DNA from: Propionibacteriaceae bacterium
GTDB lineage: Bacteria; Actinomycetota; Actinomycetes; Propionibacteriales; Propionibacteriaceae
Length of the DNA: 59,701 nt
NCBI GenBank assembly: GCA_017882685.1
Contig: JADGPA010000016.1
Coordinates: 1-59,701 of the forward strand
Direction: 5' to 3'
In this document: positions 11,653 through 30,508 of the stretch, in pieces
How the letters are laid out: each line of letters opens with the position of its first letter
Numbering within the stretch: the first letter of the stretch is position 1
Notes under the pieces: model-generated
Told to the model about the DNA's origin: nothing
Seen by the model: the letters and a program-made list of their open reading frames with translations, nothing else
The model's database searches: none
Made by a program: the position numbers and the translations under genes

Positions 11653-11673
11653 GTTCCCTTCGCCCTCACCGAC

Positions 11674-11717
11674 TTGTCAGAACCTGGCTGAGCTATGGCG
11701 CAGCCAGGTTCTGACAA
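11674..11717 (+). repeat. 17-bp perfect palindromic inverted repeat
   Basis: The arms 11674-11690 and 11701-11717 are exact reverse complements separated by a 10-nt loop; allowing one mismatch the arms grow to 20 bp. It starts 21 nt after the aldehyde dehydrogenase stop and ends 50 nt before the DUF853 ATG. No T-run follows, so it may be a non-canonical terminator, an mRNA stabiliser, a dispersed repeat or a protein site. Confidence 0.8.
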
Positions 11718-11766
11718 CTCGGGAGGTGGCGCGCCTGAAGGCGGGTTTTGTGCCAGTCTTGGGCGC

Positions 11767-21375: not shown

Positions 21376-22068
21376 GTGACCTCCTCCGAACCTGATGCGC
21401 ACGGCTCAGCCTCCGGTGAGCCCGGGCTGCGCGTCGGCTTCGTGCCCGGCGTGACCCTCACCAAATGGCGACGGGTCTGGGCCGACCGGCTGCGCAGGGT
21501 GCCCCTCGACGTGGTCGAGGTCGCCCAGGCCGGCCAGCGCGCCGCGCTCGTCGCCGGCGACGTGGACATGTGCTTCGTCCGCCTGCCCATCGACACCGAC
21601 GGTCTGCACGCCATTCCTCTCTACGACGAGGTGCCGGTGGTCGTCGCCCCCAAGGACCACCCGGTGGCCGCCTTCGACGAGGTGAGCCTCGCCGACCTGG
21701 AAGGAGAGACCTTCGTCGGTGATGACGACGAAGCCACGGGAGTCGACCGGGTCTCTTGGGGCGCGGGAATCATGCTCGTGCCGCTGTCGGTCGCCCGGTC
21801 GCACAGCCGACGCGACCTCATCCACCGTCCGGTCACCGACGCTGCACCGACAACGGTTGCGCTGGCCTGGCTGGTCGACAACCCCAACGAGTTGATCGAG
21901 GAGTTCATCGGCATCGTTCGCGGCCGGACGGCGAACAGCTCGCGGACGGCGTCGCGGGCATCATCCGGAGAGGCAAAGCCGGCACCGGCGAAGAAGCGCC
22001 CACCCGCACCGGCCAAGGGCGGCCGGCGCGACGGCGGACGTCCGGCCCGAGGCCAGCGCCGCCGCTGA
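21376..22068 (+). CDS. LysR-type substrate-binding domain protein without HTH
   Basis: A 230-residue protein that begins where a LysR regulator's effector-binding domain would begin ('LRVGFVPGVTLTKW', 'MCFVRLPIDTDGLHAIPLYDEVPVVVAPKDHPVAA'), with no N-terminal winged helix. The last 35 residues are Lys/Arg/Pro/Gly-rich (PAKKRPPAPAKGGRR...) and probably disordered and nucleic-acid or polyanion binding. The GTG at 21376 has AGGA 9 nt upstream. It may work together with the DUF5997 protein, which could supply the DNA-binding part. This split-regulator idea is an inference. Confidence 0.78.
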   Translation: MTSSEPDAHGSASGEPGLRVGFVPGVTLTKWRRVWADRLRRVPLDVVEVAQAGQRAALVAGDVDMCFVRLPIDTDGLHAIPLYDEVPVVVAPKDHPVAAFDEVSLADLEGETFVGDDDEATGVDRVSWGAGIMLVPLSVARSHSRRDLIHRPVTDAAPTTVALAWLVDNPNELIEEFIGIVRGRTANSSRTASRASSGEAKPAPAKKRPPAPAKGGRRDGGRPARGQRRR

Positions 22069-22074
22069 TCGCAG

Positions 22075-23079
22075 CTACCTGTGGCGCCCGGACTTGAGGA
22101 CGGCCTGGTACTGGGCCCGCTCGTAGGTGGACGGGTCGGGCACCGACGCAGCGCTCATCGCGCCACGCAGTTCGTCGAAGCTGGCATACCCGTGCTCGTC
22201 CAGCCACCGCTCGGTCTCGCCGAGGATCTCGGTGATCGCCTCCGGGCCGCGGCGCAGGACGGCGGAGGTTGTGCATGCGATGTTGGCGCCGACGAGGATG
22301 GCCTTGACTACCTCCGTGCCGGTGTGGACGCCGGAGGTACAGGCGAGGCTCACCTCGGGCAGCTGGCCACGCAGGATGCCGAGCCAGCGCAGGGCGAGCC
22401 GCTGGTCGTCGGGATCGGAGAGTTCGGCCCGGGCGAAGAGCCGCAGGTCGTCGAGGTCGAGGTCGGGGGCGTAGAAGCGGTTGAACAGCACCAGGCCGTC
22501 AGCGCCGGCGTCCACGGCCAGTGAGGCGAACGTCGACAGCGCCGAGTAGTACGGCGACAGCTTGACGGTGAGCGGGATGTCGACGGCGATCTTCACGGCT
22601 TCGATCGCAGCCAGGTGCGCCATCTCGACCTCGGCAGCCCCGCGTGCGGGGTTGGCCTCCACCGAGTACAGGTTGAGCTCGAGCGCGTCCGCGCCGGCGT
22701 CGGCCAGCTCGGAGGCGTACCGCTGCCAGGAGCCGGGACGGGTGGCGTTGAGGCTGGCGATCACCGGGATCTTCAGCTGGTCCTTCGCCTGCTTGAGCAA
22801 CCTCCGGTGACGTCCGGCGCCGAGGTTCGGCTGGTCGAGGTCCGGCAGCGGACCACCAGAGAACTCGGCGAAGTCCTCACCGGCTTGCATCATGTCCGAC
22901 AGTTGCGTCTCTTCGTCGACCACCTCCTCCTCGAAGAGGGACGGCAGCACGACCGCGGAAGCCCCGGCGGCCTCAAGGGCCAGCAGGGAGTCGATGCGGC
23001 CGGTCAGTGGCGAGGCTGAGGCGATCAGCGGCCCGCTCAGAGACAGTCCGAGGTAGCTGGTGCCCATCTGGGGGCTCAT
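22075..23079 (-). CDS. Dihydroorotate-dehydrogenase-like FMN protein
   Basis: A 334-residue TIM-barrel protein of the class 1 DHOD/PreA fold: 'GPLIASASPLTGRIDSLLALEAAGASAVVLPSLFEEE' at the N-terminus, 'ADALELNLYSVE', 'PLTVKLSPYYSALSTFASLAVDAGADGLVLFNRF' and 'VVKAILVGANIACTTSAVLRRG' near the phosphate-binding end. The conserved substrate-site Cys of pyrimidine DHODs is not evident, so it is unlikely to make orotate. Its ATG overlaps the nifJ stop by 4 nt (ATGA). This gene is commonly next to nifJ and probably serves electron flow or maturation of the oxidoreductase; that is inference. Confidence 0.82.
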   Translation of the reverse strand: MSPQMGTSYLGLSLSGPLIASASPLTGRIDSLLALEAAGASAVVLPSLFEEEVVDEETQLSDMMQAGEDFAEFSGGPLPDLDQPNLGAGRHRRLLKQAKDQLKIPVIASLNATRPGSWQRYASELADAGADALELNLYSVEANPARGAAEVEMAHLAAIEAVKIAVDIPLTVKLSPYYSALSTFASLAVDAGADGLVLFNRFYAPDLDLDDLRLFARAELSDPDDQRLALRWLGILRGQLPEVSLACTSGVHTGTEVVKAILVGANIACTTSAVLRRGPEAITEILGETERWLDEHGYASFDELRGAMSAASVPDPSTYERAQYQAVLKSGRHR

Positions 23080-26000
23080 GATTCCTCCTTGACGACCGGC
23101 AGGGCTCGTTCGAGGCCCGCCAGTTGCGAGTAATAGTGCCAGCGTTCGTCGGCATCCGCTTGTGCAAGCAATACCAATTGCTCGGCCCTGGCCGGATTTG
23201 CCCGTGCCAGCATCGAAAAGCGCGTTTCGTTCATCATGAAGTCACTCACCGGGAGGGTTGGCTCCTTGCTGTCGAGATGCAGCGGCGAGCCCTCCGTCCC
23301 GGGACGGTACCGGTACAGCGGCCAGTACCCGCTGGCGACAGCTTCGCTTTGGTGACTCATCGACGTCGCCATGTCGATACCGTGCGCGATGCAGGTGGAA
23401 TAGGCGATCAGCAGCGACGGCCCCGGCCACGCCTGCGCCTCCAACATCGCGCGAATGGTCTGCTGTTGGTTAGCCCCGATGGCCAGCTGGGCGACGTAGA
23501 CATTGCCGTAGGCCTGGGCCAGCAGACCAAGATCCTTCTTCGGTGTCGACTTGCCCGCGGTCGCGAACTTCGCCGTCGCACCACGCGGTGTCGCCTTGGA
23601 CGCCTGCCCGCCGGTGTTGGAGTACACCTCGGTGTCGAGGACAAGGATGTTGACGTTCCGGCCGCTGCTCAGCACGTGGTCGAGGCCGCCATAGCCGATG
23701 TCGTAGGCCCACCCGTCGCCGCCGACGATCCACACCGCCTTGTCCACCAGCTCGTCCGCCAGGGAGAGCAACGCCCGGGCTTGGTCCTTCACGCTCCCTG
23801 AGGAGCCGGGGGTGAGGAACGAACCCCCGGCGTCATCCCCCACGTTCGCTGAGGAGGCTCGTGAGCTTGCGAACGAGGCGTCACGAAGGGCAGCTGAGAA
23901 GCTGGCGTCGGCGGCCCTTCGTGACGCAGGGACCGTTTCGAGATGCCTCCCCAGCACCCGCTTGAGCTCTGCGACGCGGGCGCGCTGCTCGGCGAGGACG
24001 GCTTCCTCGGACTGGTTGGCGGCAAGCAGGGCGTCGGCGAGGTCGTGGCCGACCTCGTTGCGCAGGAGTTCGAGGAGCCGGCGGGCCTCAGCCTGCTGCA
24101 ACTCCTGGGCGATTCGCATACCAAGTCCGAACTCGGCGTTGTCCTCGAACAGCGAGTTCGACCAGGCCGGGCCACGGCCGTCGGCGTTGGTCGTGTAGGG
24201 CGTGGTGGGCAGGTTGCCGCCGAAGATCGACGAGCACCCGGTGGCGTTGGCAACGATCATCCGGTCGCCGAACAGCTGGGTGAGCGTCTTGATGTACGGG
24301 GTCTCACCGCAACCGGAGCAGGCGAGCGAGAACTCGAACAGCGGCTGCAGTTGCGCGACCCCCTTCACCTGGTCGTGGCGCACCAGTGTCCGGTCGATCT
24401 CGGGGAGGCCCAGGAAATACTCGAAGTTCACCCGCTCGACCTCCCGGTGCTCTGCCGCAGGGAGCATGTTGAGCGACTTGTGCTTGAGTTCGCTCTTCGA
24501 GCGGGCGGGGCAGACGTCGACACAGATACCGCAGCCGGTGCAGTCGTCTGGCGCGACCTGGACGATCAGCTGCCGGCCCGGGAGCTGCCGATCCTTGTAC
24601 TCCTTGTGCTGCAGGGTCCCGGGCGCGTCGGCGAGGTCCTCGGGAGTGGCCAGCTTGATGCGGATGGCGGTGTGCGGGCAGGTGATCGCGCACTTGCCGC
24701 AGTCGATGCACAGCGAGGCATCCCAGATCGGAAGCTCTGCGGCAAGGCCGCGCTTCTCCCACTTCGCCGTCCCGGTGGGCCACGCCCCGTCCACCGGCAG
24801 CGCGCTCACCGGCAGCAGGTCACCCTGACCGTGCAGCATCGCGCCGGTGACCCGCCGGACGAAATCGCCTGACTCCTCGGGCAGCGCAGGCAGCCGGTGG
24901 GTGTGACTGGACGGCTGCAGCGCGGCCGGCAGTGGCTCAAGGGCTGCGATCGCCGCGTCGATGGCGGCGAAGTTGCGCTCGACGACGGTGCGGCCGCGAC
25001 GGCCGTAGGTCTTCTCCACCGACTCCTTGATCGCGGCGATCGCTTCGTCTGTCGGCAGCACGCCGGAGAGGTAGAAGAAGCACGGCTGCATGACGGTGTT
25101 GATCCGCCTGCCGAGGCCCACCGACTTCGCCACGGCTTCGGCATCGATCACCCAGGTGCGCAGCTTCTTGTACGCGATCTCCGCCTGCACCTCCACCGGG
25201 AGGTGGTCCCAGGTGTCGGGGCCGTACGGAGAGTTCAGCAGCAGGGTGGCGCCGGGCTTCGCCACATCGACCGTCTTCATGGCGGTGAGCAGGTCGAACT
25301 GACCGACGGCGACGAAGTCTGCCCGCTCGACAAGGTAGGTGGCCCGTACCGGCGAGCTGCCGAACCGGAGGTGGGAGACGGTGACGGCCCCCGCCTTGCG
25401 GGAGTCGTAGACGAAATAGCCCTGCGCATGGGCGTCGGGCTGCTCGCCGATGATCTTCACCGAGTTCTTGGCTGCGCCGACGGTGCCGTCCGACCCCAGC
25501 CCGAAGAACACGGCGGAGAGGTGGTCGTCGGGAACGCGGAAGTCGTGGTCCGGCGTGAGCGAGAGGTGCGTGACGTCGTCGATGATGCCGACGGTGAACC
25601 GCGGCTTGGGGTCGGCCTTCGACAACTCGTCGAACACCGCCTTCGCCATCGCCGGGGTGAACTCCTTGCTGGACAGGCCGTAACGCCCGCCGATGACACG
25701 CGTTTCGGCGGCCCTTCGTGGCGCTCGCTGCACCGGCTCCTCAGGGACCGTTCCTCCACCCACGGTCCCTGAGGAGGCTGGTGAGCTTGCGCGTTCTCCA
25801 CCCACGGTCCCTGAGGAGGCTGGTGAGCTTGCGAACGAGCCGTCACGAAGGGCGTGCGACGCGGTGGCCAAAGCAACCAGGACGTCGGCGTGCAGCGGCT
25901 CGGCAGGCGCGCCGACCTCCTTGGTGCGGTCGAGGACGGCGATGCTGGTGACCGTCGGCGGCAGCGCGGCAAGGAACGCGTCGGTCGGGAACGGCCGGTA

Positions 26001-26936
26001 CAGCCGGACGGTGAGCATGCCGACCTTCTCGCCGCGACGGACGAGCTCGTCGACGGTCTCTGCGAGGCAGCCGGCCGACGATCCCATCGCGACCACCACG
26101 CGCTCGGCATCGGGAGCGCCGTGGTAGTCGACCAGCGAGTAGCGCCGTCCGGTGCGCGCTGCCAGCTCGTCGAACACCTGGGCCACGGTCTCGGGCACCG
26201 CGAAGTGGAACGGGTTGGCCGCCTCGGCCGCCTGGAAGAACGTGTCGGGGTTCTCCGCGACGCCGCGGATCACGGGTGCGTCCGGGGTGAGCCCGCGGGC
26301 ACGATGGGCCAGCACGTCGTCCTCACGCACGAGGGCGCGCAGGTCGCCGTCGCCCAGAAGCGCGATGGTGCTCACCTCGTGGCTGGTACGGAAGCCGTCG
26401 AAGAAGTGCACGAACGGCACCCGGGTGCGCAGCGTCGCCGCATGCGCGACCAGGGCGAAATCGTGCGCCTCCTGCACCGAGGATGCGGCCAGCATCGCCC
26501 AGCCGGTCATGCGGGCGGTCATCACGTCGGAATGGTCGCCGAAGATGCTCAGGGCGTGGGTGGCGACCGTCCGCGCAGCGACGTGGATCACCGCAGGCGT
26601 GAGCTCGCCGGCGATCTTGAACATGTTGGGGAGCATCAGCAGCAGGCCCTGCGACGCGGTGAAGGTTGTCCCGAGCGTGCCTTTGGTGACAGCGCCGTGG
26701 AGCGCGCCGGCCGCGCCGGCCTCGGACTGGAGCTCAACGACCTCGGGGACGCCGCCCCACAGGTTCGGCTTGCCCCCGGCCGACCAGGCGTCCGCCGATT
26801 CGCCCATTGCCGACGACGGAGTGATCGGATAGATCGCGATCACCTCGCTGAGGGCGTGCGCAACGCGCGCGACGGCCTCGTTCCCGTCCAGCGTTGCGCG
26901 GTCTACACGTCCACTGGCCACCCGATCTTCGATCAC
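23076..26936 (-). CDS. nifJ: Pyruvate:ferredoxin (flavodoxin) oxidoreductase with two in-frame repeat insertions
   Basis: A 1286-residue single-chain enzyme that converts pyruvate and CoA to acetyl-CoA and CO2, reducing ferredoxin or flavodoxin. The N-terminal 'IAIYPITPSSAMGE' is the pyruvate/TPP domain I, 'VIGGRYGLSSKEFTPAMAKAVFDEL' starts domain III, two 4Fe-4S ferredoxin motifs (CIDCGKCAITCPH and CTGCGICVDVCP) follow, then the C-terminal TPP part with CSGCGETPY, NATGCSSIFGGNLP and GGDGWAYDIGYGGLDH, and further cysteine 'YSTCIAHG'. Usual length is about 1170-1200. The extra residues come from two low-complexity segments at about 358-409 and 998-1049, each made of palindromic repeat DNA. Both keep the frame. 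The start at 26936 is an ATG; the frame continues intact to the stop. Confidence 0.94.
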   Translation of the reverse strand: MIEDRVASGRVDRATLDGNEAVARVAHALSEVIAIYPITPSSAMGESADAWSAGGKPNLWGGVPEVVELQSEAGAAGALHGAVTKGTLGTTFTASQGLLLMLPNMFKIAGELTPAVIHVAARTVATHALSIFGDHSDVMTARMTGWAMLAASSVQEAHDFALVAHAATLRTRVPFVHFFDGFRTSHEVSTIALLGDGDLRALVREDDVLAHRARGLTPDAPVIRGVAENPDTFFQAAEAANPFHFAVPETVAQVFDELAARTGRRYSLVDYHGAPDAERVVVAMGSSAGCLAETVDELVRRGEKVGMLTVRLYRPFPTDAFLAALPPTVTSIAVLDRTKEVGAPAEPLHADVLVALATASHALRDGSFASSPASSGTVGGERASSPASSGTVGGGTVPEEPVQRAPRRAAETRVIGGRYGLSSKEFTPAMAKAVFDELSKADPKPRFTVGIIDDVTHLSLTPDHDFRVPDDHLSAVFFGLGSDGTVGAAKNSVKIIGEQPDAHAQGYFVYDSRKAGAVTVSHLRFGSSPVRATYLVERADFVAVGQFDLLTAMKTVDVAKPGATLLLNSPYGPDTWDHLPVEVQAEIAYKKLRTWVIDAEAVAKSVGLGRRINTVMQPCFFYLSGVLPTDEAIAAIKESVEKTYGRRGRTVVERNFAAIDAAIAALEPLPAALQPSSHTHRLPALPEESGDFVRRVTGAMLHGQGDLLPVSALPVDGAWPTGTAKWEKRGLAAELPIWDASLCIDCGKCAITCPHTAIRIKLATPEDLADAPGTLQHKEYKDRQLPGRQLIVQVAPDDCTGCGICVDVCPARSKSELKHKSLNMLPAAEHREVERVNFEYFLGLPEIDRTLVRHDQVKGVAQLQPLFEFSLACSGCGETPYIKTLTQLFGDRMIVANATGCSSIFGGNLPTTPYTTNADGRGPAWSNSLFEDNAEFGLGMRIAQELQQAEARRLLELLRNEVGHDLADALLAANQSEEAVLAEQRARVAELKRVLGRHLETVPASRRAADASFSAALRDASFASSRASSANVGDDAGGSFLTPGSSGSVKDQARALLSLADELVDKAVWIVGGDGWAYDIGYGGLDHVLSSGRNVNILVLDTEVYSNTGGQASKATPRGATAKFATAGKSTPKKDLGLLAQAYGNVYVAQLAIGANQQQTIRAMLEAQAWPGPSLLIAYSTCIAHGIDMATSMSHQSEAVASGYWPLYRYRPGTEGSPLHLDSKEPTLPVSDFMMNETRFSMLARANPARAEQLVLLAQADADERWHYYSQLAGLERALPVVKEES
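23790..23945. repeat. REP-like palindromic repeats inside nifJ (second insertion)
   Basis: This segment contains CCCTGAGGAG followed by a GGGGG/CCCCC hairpin, then GCTGAGGAGGCTCGTGAGCTTGCGAACGAGGCGTCACGAAGGGC-like sequence (23848-23891) and finally the inverted GCCCTTCGTGACGCAGGGACCG (23914-23935). The ends match those of the other nifJ insertion in both orientations. It encodes about 50 residues of Ala/Ser/Gly-rich sequence in nifJ where relatives have a short loop. Confidence 0.8.
25710..25862. repeat. REP-like palindromic repeats inside nifJ (first insertion)
   Basis: The block holds an inverted copy (GCCCTTCGTGGCGCTC...CTCCTCAGGGACCG), then two direct copies of CACGGTCCCTGAGGAGGCTGGTGAGCTTGCG starting at 25761 and 25803 (period 42 nt) and ends CGTCACGAAGGGC at about 25853. 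A 42-nt period is 14 codons, so nifJ gains a repeated 14-residue unit ASSPASSGTVGGER. The two copies and the inverted copy have the layout of paired bacterial REP elements. Confidence 0.82.
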
Positions 26937-26953
26937 CCGGTCATTCTCGCGCC

Positions 26954-29900
26954 TCAGAGGGGCTGACGGCCGACCGTCCCGACGATGGCTTTCCGGTACT
27001 CGGGATTGCTGAACCGGGCATATTCCGCCTCCGCAGCCTTGATCCGGGTCGCGACGTCGAGCCGTTCGGTGGGCTCCTCGTTGCCGGGGGTCGTGCTGAA
27101 CTGCTGCAGCGCGGCGAGGCCGGCTGCCGCGCGGGTGGCCGCCGCGGCCTGCTTGGCGTCCAGCCGGGCCCCGTACCAGTCCGAGCCGACGATCGACTCC
27201 CGGGTGAACAGGGCGCGGAACTCCGGGGAGTCCAGGACCCAGCCTTCGGCGGTTCGTCCGTTGGCCATGATCTCGAGGAGGGCCCGCAGCGGCGGGATGG
27301 CCAGCGCGATCGTTGCATCGTCGAAGTAGGCCTGAGCGACCCGCTGGTGGGTCGTGACGATGGTGGCCATCGACTCGGCGAACACGTCGGGGTCCTGCAG
27401 CTCGGGACGCAACATCTCCTCGGTGAAGACAGCGTGCGGGTGCAGGAAGATGCGGCCGAAGTACTTGCGCGCGAACGCCTGCGTCATTCGGTAGCCCAGG
27501 CGACTGGCCAGCACAGGCTGCCCGTTGTGCTCGAAATCCTCCATCTTCTCCAGGGCGCCCTCGGTGTAGAGGTTGGCGGCCGTGCGCTCCTTCGCGGTCA
27601 TCCGGGAGAACACCTCAGGCACGAGCATCGAGATGTCGTGCTCCACCCGGAAGTTCGGTCCGACGTAGCCGGCGCACGAGACCCAGCCGTCGTAGCCGGT
27701 GAGCGCGTACGAGAGCAGGGCTGCATTCAGATCGATGATGGCGGGCAGGGCGTTGAACGGACCCTTTGTCATCGCACCCTCGGAGCCGGCTCCGGTGGTG
27801 GACGGCGACTTGCCGGTCATCGAGGAGATGAATTCGGCGAAGAGTTCCGGCAACTCCAGGAAGTGCAGCGGGCTGAACGAGCACAGGGGCGGCACCGGAC
27901 CGTCGGGTGGGTTGTTCCGCCGGCCGGCGGCGACCACGTCCACCGGCAGCGGCAGGGCCGCGTGGGACGGCAGTCGGCGGACCAGGTGCGCGGCAAGGTC
28001 GGCAACGGCCGTGGCGGCTGCGTTCGTGCGGTCGGGCCTCTTCTGCAGGTAGCGCGGGTTCTTGCTGGGCTTGCCCAGAACGAGCCGCGGGTTGGCCGAG
28101 CTGACGAAGAAGGCCGGTGAACTGCCTTCCGCGGAATCGGCGACAGCGCTGATCAGGTTCGCCATCGGCGCGGTGAACGCGGAGAACGCCACCGCGTCGT
28201 CGCGCATCTCGATGGCGTCGGCGCGGGTGAGCGGCTCGAAGTTGGAGAGGAACGTGCCGGGGCCGGCGATGTCGGCTTCGGCCTGCTTGTCGTAACCGCG
28301 GTGGATGGCGTCGTCGGGACGCTGGAACAGCAGCTCCTCGCAGTTTTCCACCAGCTTGTAGGACCGACCGGTGGGCAGCCCAACCATGTGGCCATCGACG
28401 ACGACGGAGGCGGTGATGTCGTCCTCGGTCTGCACCTTCACGGCCGGGTTGAAGTCATGCCGCAGGCCGAACAGCCGCCACGAGCCATCGGTGTCGAAGC
28501 CCACCCGCAGCATGTTGACGTTGATCTTGTCGCCGTCCAGCCGCAGGGCGTTGCCGAGGCGCCCGTTGATGATGCCGACGGTGAAGTGGCCGCGCCAGTC
28601 GCTGCCCCACTCCGGTCGGTAGAAGCGCTTGACGACGAAGACGAGCTCCTTGATGTGCTGGGGGATCGAGTTCAGCCAGGCGCTGTAGTCACCCGTGTAC
28701 TCGGTCTCCGAGGGGGTCAGCAGCTTGATCACGCTGCCGATGCTCCGGTCGTCGTCGAGGATCAGCCGCCGGTCCGTGCCGTTGGCCGACGGGTCGGCGA
28801 ATCGGTCGGAAAAGTCCTTGGCGAGGATGGCAGCCACCGCGTCCATGTCGTTGTCGAAGTCGGGCGAGTAGGCGTTGCCGAAGATGAATGCGTCGGTGAT
28901 GGCCTTGGAGATCTCGGACTTGCCGCCACCGGAGACGGTGCTCGGCTTGTGGCAACTGGTCGCTGTCGGGACGGTGCCGACGAGGCTCCACTGGGTGCGG
29001 TCGGCGGCCTGCTGCACCATTCGCACCTGGTAGCCGTCAGGGCTGAGGTAGGTCTTGTCCGCCCGCAGGCGAAGCGAGCCCTGGCCGTTGTCAGGGTTGT
29101 CCCAGGTGACGGTGAGGGTGCGCAGCGAGTAGGTCGGGTTGGAAGGCACCAGCACGATGTGTGGCTGCTCGGCGTCCAGCGCGTGTCCCTCGGGCTGCGC
29201 GACGAAGCGGTCGGGGTCGCGCTCGCGCACGCTGGCGAGGGTGTACTCCGTGCCGGCGGAGCTGACCGTGTACTCCTGGCCCAGGTTGTAGCTGGGGAAC
29301 ACCAGCGCGCCGCCGGCGTGTTCCTCCTCGGCGTTGCCGAAGAGGTTCGCCGAGTAGCTGATCTGGGTCTTCACTTCCTTCTTGCAGTAGCCGAAGTAGT
29401 TGTCGGCGATCACGGTGACGATCACGCCGCGGGCGTCGCGGGCGCACGCCTTGAACGCCTGACCGCCGTTGTACAGCTCGCCCTCGTCCGTCCAGCACAT
29501 GCCGTCACGCCGCTGACGGTCGGTGGCCTCGCTGGTGTGCGGCAGGCCGAGGGACGCCTTGGTGACGCGGGTGAGGTGGGGGGCGAGGATGACCGCACCG
29601 GTGTGGCCGGTCCAGGTCTCCGGCTTCAGGGAGGCGTCATTCTCCGGCAGGTAAGGGTCGCCACCGTTGCCGAAGATGCCTTCGACGAAGTCGAGGTTGG
29701 CCACGAGCCCACCGGGCACGATGAACCGGGTCTCCATGCGCTTCTCACGCACGTAGCCGGGCACGGCCGGCGCAACCAGCGGACGCAGCTGGAGGGAGAC
29801 GAAGCAGGACGCCGGCTCCTCCTGGTTGGCGGTGTAGGGAAGCACCAGGTCGACCTGCGGGGGCTGGAACGCGAGCTCCAGCAGCCGGGCGAACACCGCC

Positions 29901-30349
29901 TTCGGCACGCCGATCTTGTCGTCGGGGATCGGCAGGCCGCCCTCGGCGATGTGGAACACGCCCGCGGTGGTGCGGCGGTCGTTCGCCGGGTTGTGGAGGA
30001 CGCCGTTCGCCAGCCGGTAGCTGCTCAGCAGCGGGGAGTTGTAGGAGTCCGCGTCGTATGGCAGCGACAGCTCGCGGGCAAGCCCGGCCTCGTCGAGCAC
30101 GAACGTTCGACGGGGGAGCTTGGGGCTCACCCCCGTGTCGGCCAGGTAGTCGTCCAGCCAGTTCTGGATACGGCTGTCCGCCGCGCACAGCCGGTCGGCG
30201 AGGCGCCGGCTCAGTTCGCGCTGCCGGGCGAGGATCGGCGCGACGAGCTTCGCCGTCTGCGTGTCCTGGACCTCGGCGGGCAGCGGCAGGCCGAGCTGGG
30301 CCAGACGGAGACTGATGGCGGCATTCTGGGTCGGGGCCATGCCCCCCAT
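26954..30349 (-). CDS. Probable pyrophosphate-dependent PEP carboxykinase (PEP carboxytransphosphorylase)
   Basis: A soluble protein of 1131 residues with no transmembrane segment or signal. Visible motifs are ADNYFGYCKKEVKTQISYSANL at about residues 313-335 and a P-loop-like GGGKSEISK at about 473-481, which matches the kinase-type loop of PEPCK enzymes. Length near 1130-1190 and these motifs fit the PPi-type PEPCK described from Entamoeba and Propionibacterium freudenreichii: PEP + CO2 + Pi to oxaloacetate + PPi, and the reverse. I recognise it from memory of that family; I could not compare sequences. The context, 18 nt from the start of nifJ, suits a pyruvate/PEP node. Starts at 30340 (ATG) and 30358 (TTG) are alternatives. 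Confidence 0.72.
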   Translation of the reverse strand: MGGMAPTQNAAISLRLAQLGLPLPAEVQDTQTAKLVAPILARQRELSRRLADRLCAADSRIQNWLDDYLADTGVSPKLPRRTFVLDEAGLARELSLPYDADSYNSPLLSSYRLANGVLHNPANDRRTTAGVFHIAEGGLPIPDDKIGVPKAVFARLLELAFQPPQVDLVLPYTANQEEPASCFVSLQLRPLVAPAVPGYVREKRMETRFIVPGGLVANLDFVEGIFGNGGDPYLPENDASLKPETWTGHTGAVILAPHLTRVTKASLGLPHTSEATDRQRRDGMCWTDEGELYNGGQAFKACARDARGVIVTVIADNYFGYCKKEVKTQISYSANLFGNAEEEHAGGALVFPSYNLGQEYTVSSAGTEYTLASVRERDPDRFVAQPEGHALDAEQPHIVLVPSNPTYSLRTLTVTWDNPDNGQGSLRLRADKTYLSPDGYQVRMVQQAADRTQWSLVGTVPTATSCHKPSTVSGGGKSEISKAITDAFIFGNAYSPDFDNDMDAVAAILAKDFSDRFADPSANGTDRRLILDDDRSIGSVIKLLTPSETEYTGDYSAWLNSIPQHIKELVFVVKRFYRPEWGSDWRGHFTVGIINGRLGNALRLDGDKINVNMLRVGFDTDGSWRLFGLRHDFNPAVKVQTEDDITASVVVDGHMVGLPTGRSYKLVENCEELLFQRPDDAIHRGYDKQAEADIAGPGTFLSNFEPLTRADAIEMRDDAVAFSAFTAPMANLISAVADSAEGSSPAFFVSSANPRLVLGKPSKNPRYLQKRPDRTNAAATAVADLAAHLVRRLPSHAALPLPVDVVAAGRRNNPPDGPVPPLCSFSPLHFLELPELFAEFISSMTGKSPSTTGAGSEGAMTKGPFNALPAIIDLNAALLSYALTGYDGWVSCAGYVGPNFRVEHDISMLVPEVFSRMTAKERTAANLYTEGALEKMEDFEHNGQPVLASRLGYRMTQAFARKYFGRIFLHPHAVFTEEMLRPELQDPDVFAESMATIVTTHQRVAQAYFDDATIALAIPPLRALLEIMANGRTAEGWVLDSPEFRALFTRESIVGSDWYGARLDAKQAAAATRAAAGLAALQQFSTTPGNEEPTERLDVATRIKAAEAEYARFSNPEYRKAIVGTVGRQPL

Positions 30350-30508
30350 TGTGGTCAACGATCACCCGCGCCGGCGTCTGGTCTCGCCCCGGCCGGACGG
30401 GCTTGACGCGCAGGCGCCGTCCTGATGACCGGCCGGCCCCTGCCGGAGTCCCGCCTGGAACCGGGTCATCGTTGGCGGGGCAAGCACCCCAGGGCACGAG
30501 CGTGCAAT

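Follow-up and report, generated by a model that had tools for sequence, protein, structure and literature searches.

The nifJ gene of this Propionibacteriaceae genome carries palindromic repeats inside its reading frame, which raises the question of what these repeats are, how they came to lie in a coding sequence, and how the encoded enzyme accommodates them. The window, as used here, is the whole stretch of DNA that was analysed (59,701 nt). Other genomes are referred to by handles such as G166.

Two repeat arrays within nifJ

nifJ lies at 23076–26936 on the minus strand and encodes a pyruvate:ferredoxin (flavodoxin) oxidoreductase of 1286 aa with an intact reading frame. The protein scores 1583.1 bits against TIGR02176 (cut-off 911.35) and matches the Pfam domains POR_N, PFOR_II, POR, EKR, Fer4, and TPP_enzyme_C. 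Of the named species represented in the 80 retained nifJ loci, Propionimicrobium lymphophilum is the closest (62%). nifJ is adjoined at 26954–30358 (minus strand) by a gene for an 1134-aa protein that matches nothing in Pfam at E up to 0.01 and nothing in NCBIfam at E up to 0.001; in size alone it is reminiscent of the PPi-dependent PEP carboxykinase of propionibacteria.

The first array (site 1, 25705–25853, residues 362–409) is built from three repeat units, one in gene orientation and, in the opposite orientation, one truncated and one complete. The unit in gene orientation (25705–25752, minus strand, ends read from the sequence), TVPEEPVQRAPRRAAE, has a shortened inner part. It is followed on the plus strand by a unit whose 3′ part is missing (25762–25791, read as ASSPASSGTV) and by a full unit that matches the exact pattern (25804–25853, read as ALRDGSFASSPASSGTV). 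The truncated and the complete opposite units together make a tandem period of 42 nt (25754–25833, plus strand), in which identical 38-nt copies at 25754–25791 and 25796–25833 encode ASSPASSGTVGGER/ASSPASSGTVGGG. The 42-nt copies are in frame, so that ASSPASSGTVGGER occupies residues 369–382, and VIGGRYGLSSKEFTPA starts at residue 414. The inverted copy is formed by the arms 25721–25751 and 25762–25792, which are 77% complementary. An earlier note on this DNA had described an inverted copy and two direct 42-nt copies, read in frame as a 14-residue repeat near residues 358–409. Both statements are confirmed by the identical 38-nt copies, the inverted arms and the reading frame, the interval given in that note corresponding to residues 359–409. 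The repeat copies named there are present, but the first one on the plus strand lacks its 3′ part. The region 25700–25865 folds more stably than all 200 shuffled sequences both as RNA (z = −4.26) and as DNA (z = −4.91).

A second array is found in the same gene (site 2, 23791–23937, about residues 1000–1049). It starts with a unit opposite to the gene that has the complementary stem CCGGGGGT/ACCCCCGG and lacks its 3′ end (23791–23835, plus strand, boundary read from the sequence). A full unit in the same orientation with an exact pattern match, ALRDASFASSRASSANV, lies at 23842–23891 (plus strand), and a remnant in gene orientation without a stem-loop (TVPASRRAAD, 23908–23937, minus strand) completes the array.

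Both inserts are predicted to be disordered loops. nifJ was modelled with AlphaFold2 in two overlapping parts (residues 1–690 and 640–1286, 46-row alignments) because the full-length protein is beyond the folding limit. The mean pLDDT is 80.7 and 83.8 for the two parts, respectively, whereas the block means of the inserts are 27–48 at residues 361–410 and 32–57 at residues 1000–1049. pLDDT falls below 50 at residues 366–408 and 1010–1045, with confident secondary structure on either side. These very low values are partly expected, since nearly all alignment rows lack the insert. Alignments with phmmer to the solved pyruvate:ferredoxin oxidoreductases 6cin and 7plm break at 359–412 or 360–407 and at 952–1040 or 971–1055; the latter break is broader than the site 2 insert itself.

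A dispersed hairpin with conserved ends and a variable stem

The repeat unit is a hairpin whose ends are conserved, whose loop is mostly of the GAG..CGA type, and whose stem varies yet stays complementary. It consists of ACGGTCCCTGAGGAG, the variable stem, the GAG..CGA loop, the complementary stem, and CGTCACGAAGGGCC. A palindromic unit had rightly been recognized in the earlier note, but the full unit is about 48–50 nt long and not 28. A genome-wide search for the exact pattern CTGAGGA..TCACGAAGGG gave 24 matches (13 forward, 11 reverse) and none in the reversed control; as had been expected, the unit is thus not unique to nifJ. Shorter patterns are noisier. GGTCCCTGAGG gives 29 matches compared to 2 in the control, and GTCACGAAGGGC with up to one mismatch gives 93 compared to 16, part of these 93 places (30 loci) being examined. 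In the window alone, GGTCCCTGAG with up to one mismatch is found 8 times, no more than the 8.04 expected by chance. Rfam returned no match over 22000–28000 at E up to 1.

Conservation extends beyond the search pattern. Among 99 distinct units from the genomes examined, CGGTCC precedes the pattern (74–98% per column) and a C follows it (86%), whereas columns 2–7 of the stem are only 34–62% conserved and comprise 61 different 6-nt 5′ arms. Despite this variability the arms pair: over the first five positions of 83 units, pairing reaches 87%, compared to a mean of 39% and a maximum of 47% when the arms were re-dealt in 2000 shuffles. In 21 units of equal length, 97.1% of the cells are paired, and 45 cells are changed on both sides, compared to 13.4 in shuffles and 4–9 when the arms were slid. 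All five variable inner stem pairs are changed on both sides in this set, a number that is no higher than in shuffles (4.4). The 21 units were chosen with exact ends, and their outer pairs therefore hardly vary; the outer CCCT/AGGG pairing is likewise present and mostly imposed by the search pattern. With regard to MITE criteria, no target-site duplication was identified, and at nifJ neither a target-site duplication nor an exact empty site is readable because the linkers of the relatives diverge.

The strong predicted fold at site 1 and the compensatory stem changes across the unit family are what would be seen if hairpins in the nifJ mRNA slowed ribosomes or stabilized the message and were kept for that reason. 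Such a role at the RNA level appears highly improbable, as the covarying set includes units from in-gene loci as well as from loci that were not called so, which makes the constraint seem the element's own; moreover, the remnant at site 2 has no stem-loop and several relatives carry no unit at the nifJ sites. The combination of fixed ends and loop with a stem that is free as long as it is self-complementary would fit recognition of folded single-stranded DNA, a rather unlikely reading taken up below. Integron attC sites also combine conserved ends with a variable self-complementary stem, a likeness that concerns architecture only and not membership.

Copies inside genes and their reading frame

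In the stretches of the window genome examined, 51 regex matches were obtained. Once 7 had been discarded as chance matches, 44 units remained, which form 31 clusters. The unit lists start from matches to the unit ends and are missing decayed copies. A cluster was called in-gene when, by codon usage trained on the window, the same frame was best on both sides and open through the repeats. This codon test was passed by 15 of the 31 clusters. One flank of the cluster in the Fpg/Nei gene is weak in the test, which is taken to be a stretch running past the gene start. The rhodanese cluster was added by hand, as the frame is kept through the CGSG motif and two stretches match rhodanese in Pfam. In total, 16 of the 31 clusters and 28 of the 44 units lie in frame in 12 genes. 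The unit thus resembles REPs as a short palindromic repeat with many dispersed copies (24 exact, or the 44 looser units), but it is not predominantly extragenic in this genome, and the earlier expectation that such repeats normally lie between genes did not hold here.

Two in-frame sites each are found in ligD, an lhr-type helicase gene, nifJ, and a dihydrolipoamide acyltransferase-like gene that scores below the NCBIfam cut-offs. One site each is found in genes for an AAA ATPase, a beta-lactamase-family hydrolase, a GH3 hydrolase, an Fpg/Nei glycosylase, and a rhodanese, and in pyrD, ileS, and dnaX. The repeats are between or outside matched domain stretches at 9 of the 16 sites (two in nifJ, two in ligD, and one each in dnaX, ileS, the AAA ATPase, the hydrolase, and GH3). 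They are inside such stretches in pyrD, nei, lhr (both sites), and probably rhodanese. Most clusters of the relatives lie outside genes: by the codon test alone, applied to the clusters examined, none of which is within 200 nt of a stretch end, the in-gene share is 9/21 in G166 (6/18 minus three loci that were selected as nifJ or ileS), 3/19 in G150, 5/18 in G181, and 0/6 in G133.

The coding copies are read almost exclusively in one frame per orientation. Counting copies of at least 30 nt and leaving out shorter matches, forward units are read as the xVPEE type in 31 of 32 cases and reverse units as the ALRD type in 8 of 10. The forward exception is the stemless nifJ remnant, the match of which begins in flanking sequence. 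Of the reverse units, the two that deviate are composites in ileS (L252) and in a G150 gene (L306), in which one unit is apparently nested in the loop of another and the other frame is used. An alternative frame is also open across 25 forward units and remains unused in 24 of them. When frame choice is counted per gene (17 genes), the chance of this outcome is 7.6e-6 under the assumption of equal odds for two frames. So strong a bias towards one frame suggests something beyond a passive filtering of stops and may reflect peptide selection or a phase preference of insertion.

Variation among relatives and relation to known repeats

Exact matches occur in 9 of 197 family genomes, and the reversed control gave one match in each of 2 genomes. 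The counts are 24 in the window genome, 37 in G166, 42 in G150, 142 in G181, 7 in G133, and 2 in G064. G169, G183, and G099 have a single match each; these may be chance events, and the one in G099 looks so. Within the genus, 6 of 30 genomes have an exact match. In a phylum sample without other family members, a slightly stricter pattern matched 2 of 396 genomes including its own (1 of 395 others), the other match having a 37-nt middle and being a candidate only.

At nifJ, the presence of the unit, its absence, and its copy number all vary. The closest nifJ found is that of G166 (92–94% identical, split over two contigs), which has one unit per site. Seven nifJ copies (G169, two in G150, two in G146, G137, and G058) have no paired unit ends at either site with 2–3 mismatches allowed. 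At site 1 the window has a linker of 57 residues, compared to 20 in G166 and 7–20 in the seven unit-free copies, where these residues are unconserved; at site 2 the lengths are 64, 34, and 16–45 residues, respectively. The comparison agrees with the expectation that relatives without the unit are shorter at this place and that related strains differ in presence and copy number. A plain gain of residues, however, is clear only for the window, because some unit-free relatives have site 1 linkers about as long (19 residues in G169, 20 in one G150 copy) as the one-unit linker of G166 (20 residues). Beside simple addition, older linker sequence was thus possibly replaced. In place of the unit, the nifJ of G022 (L229) carries at site 1 an unrelated TTD-rich tandem repeat of 51 residues.

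The same linkers are filled in different ways. In G181 (L224, L266, L268), CGTC palindromes of the CGTCATCCCGG type lie in frame at both nifJ sites, and its pyrD linker holds the CGTC type together with an apparent remnant of the main unit (EEPRGSGVTKG). One G150 copy of pyrD reads like that of the window (TVPEEPRGTSGVTKG), and pyrD was not found in G166. In ileS, one place of the linker has differing arrangements in the window genome, G166, and G181. Filled and unfilled linkers were thereby compared for pyrD and ileS as well. The varied fillings at nifJ, pyrD, and ileS mark these linkers as tolerant places, and the palindromes of another family at both nifJ linkers of G181 point to site tolerance rather than target specificity.

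Two further explanations can be weighed at this point. The genome is a 215-contig draft of 88.9% completeness and the nifJ of G166 is split, and the arrays could accordingly be thought an assembly artefact or the ordinary slippage of a GC-rich low-complexity linker. This is scarcely credible given that relatives whose genomes were assembled separately also carry the unit, and that it recurs at many unrelated loci, partly in inverted copies and with stems that covary. The loops could alternatively have been selected as protein features, for example as binding or regulatory linkers, the element being domesticated. Almost one frame per orientation and the filling of the same linkers in different species would fit this idea, but the window genome and G166 have different copy numbers or inner sequences at each of the four orthologous sites that were compared, the inserts are predicted to be disordered, and the host proteins are unrelated to one another, which leaves domestication improbable.

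Very probably, a lineage-restricted mobile REP-like hairpin is tolerated in frame in permissive linkers of nifJ. A mobile element present in part of the genus and in a few relatives would have been copied into two such linkers, one joining domain II to the domain that follows it and one just before the C-terminal thiamine-diphosphate domain. The copies would have been retained where the frame is open through them and the small-residue or polar, probably disordered peptide was tolerated, and further insertion and tandem duplication would later have changed their number locally. The loop is presumably translated and retained in the protein, with a near-neutral effect, and the element may still be moving. 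The core claim of the earlier note, REP-like repeats inserted in frame into nifJ, stands with the dispersed family, its absence from the same place in several relatives, and the predicted disordered loop.

How the element would move was approached through Y1 transposases. Thirteen Y1 matches were obtained in nine genomes tested, seven of which were positive, and 12 loci were examined. None of the 12 has a unit beside the transposase (no tail within 1 mismatch, heads only at 2 mismatches); the genes are flanked instead by GGGGAC-type inverted repeats and resemble TIR-flanked transposases described in PMC3733652. Presence does not track either: three Y1 matches but no unit were obtained in G146, 7 units but no Y1 match in G133, and G137 lacks both. 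A RAYT (Y1) as mobilizer was therefore rejected. The two Y1 genes of the window genome (L237, about 1300–2310; L243, about 1255–2370) likewise have flanking inverted repeats of the GGGGAC type.

The unit is a real and new-looking family of a known kind, set apart by its high intragenic share in the window genome, its variable complementary stems, and its near-fixed frame. Membership in the GTAG superfamily of REPs was rejected, as there is no unpaired GTAG end and the end columns read CGGTCC and C-C-G-C-C. The CGTC superfamily, defined in PMC3733652 by a CGTC tag followed by an 8–9 bp stem with AT in its first two positions, does not fit in position or stem, since the unit has its CGTC on the 3′ side of the stem, with ACGAAGGG after it. 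The G181 palindromes (CGTCATCCCGGCGAACGCCGGGAT) fit this tag and AT-starting stem; they share the nifJ sites and the pyrD linker with the unit and are unrelated to it in sequence. According to a survey (Di Nocera 2013, PMC3733652), GTAG and CGTC REPs are similar to the unit as short, dispersed palindromes with grouped and inverted copies. Some lie inside genes of several bacteria. Many of these genes serve DNA repair, genes for DNA ligase and for tRNA synthetases are also among the targets, and different REPs occupy roughly the same site of Xanthomonas recB. These REP families also hold differing stems, so that the stem variability of the unit is a difference of degree; they are mostly intergenic in the survey, whereas about half of the clusters in the window genome are in genes. 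The word "Actinobacteria" does not occur in the main text of that paper. A limited search of non-subscription literature on REP/RAYT and intragenic REPs in Actinobacteria and on palindromic repeats in Propionibacteriaceae brought up no report of the unit family.

Rickettsia palindromic elements (RPEs) are a close parallel in gene placement, being described in PMC2229807 and PMC10969869 as palindromes in frame in unrelated conserved protein genes; in-frame insertion into unrelated protein genes is likewise found here in 12 genes. By these descriptions RPEs are about 105–150 bp in length, whereas the actinobacterial unit is much shorter and has very variable stems. RPE-4 and RPE-6 are listed as CGTC-type REPs in PMC3733652.

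It is possible, though rather unlikely, that the family represents a new class of mobile hairpin recognized by its structure, as folded single-stranded DNA and by a putative enzyme, that at the same time supplies housekeeping enzymes across part of the genus with a portable linker peptide of one frame per orientation. With this family, protein-coding palindromes reach an actinobacterial lineage whose genome is around 3 Mb or larger. The core enzymes nifJ, ileS, pyrD, and probably further ones exist naturally with the linker filled or unfilled, which makes neutral, harmful, or useful inserts directly testable, and the unit is a way into the recognition and copying of a repeat with a freely changing stem.

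Elsewhere in the window, a strong hairpin lies between two open reading frames at 11669–11722, with 25-nt arms that are 92% complementary and a 4-nt loop. Its arm motif TTGTCAGAACCTGG has 7 matches in the genome with at most one mismatch, on 5 contigs, and none in the control; it perhaps represents a second palindrome family.
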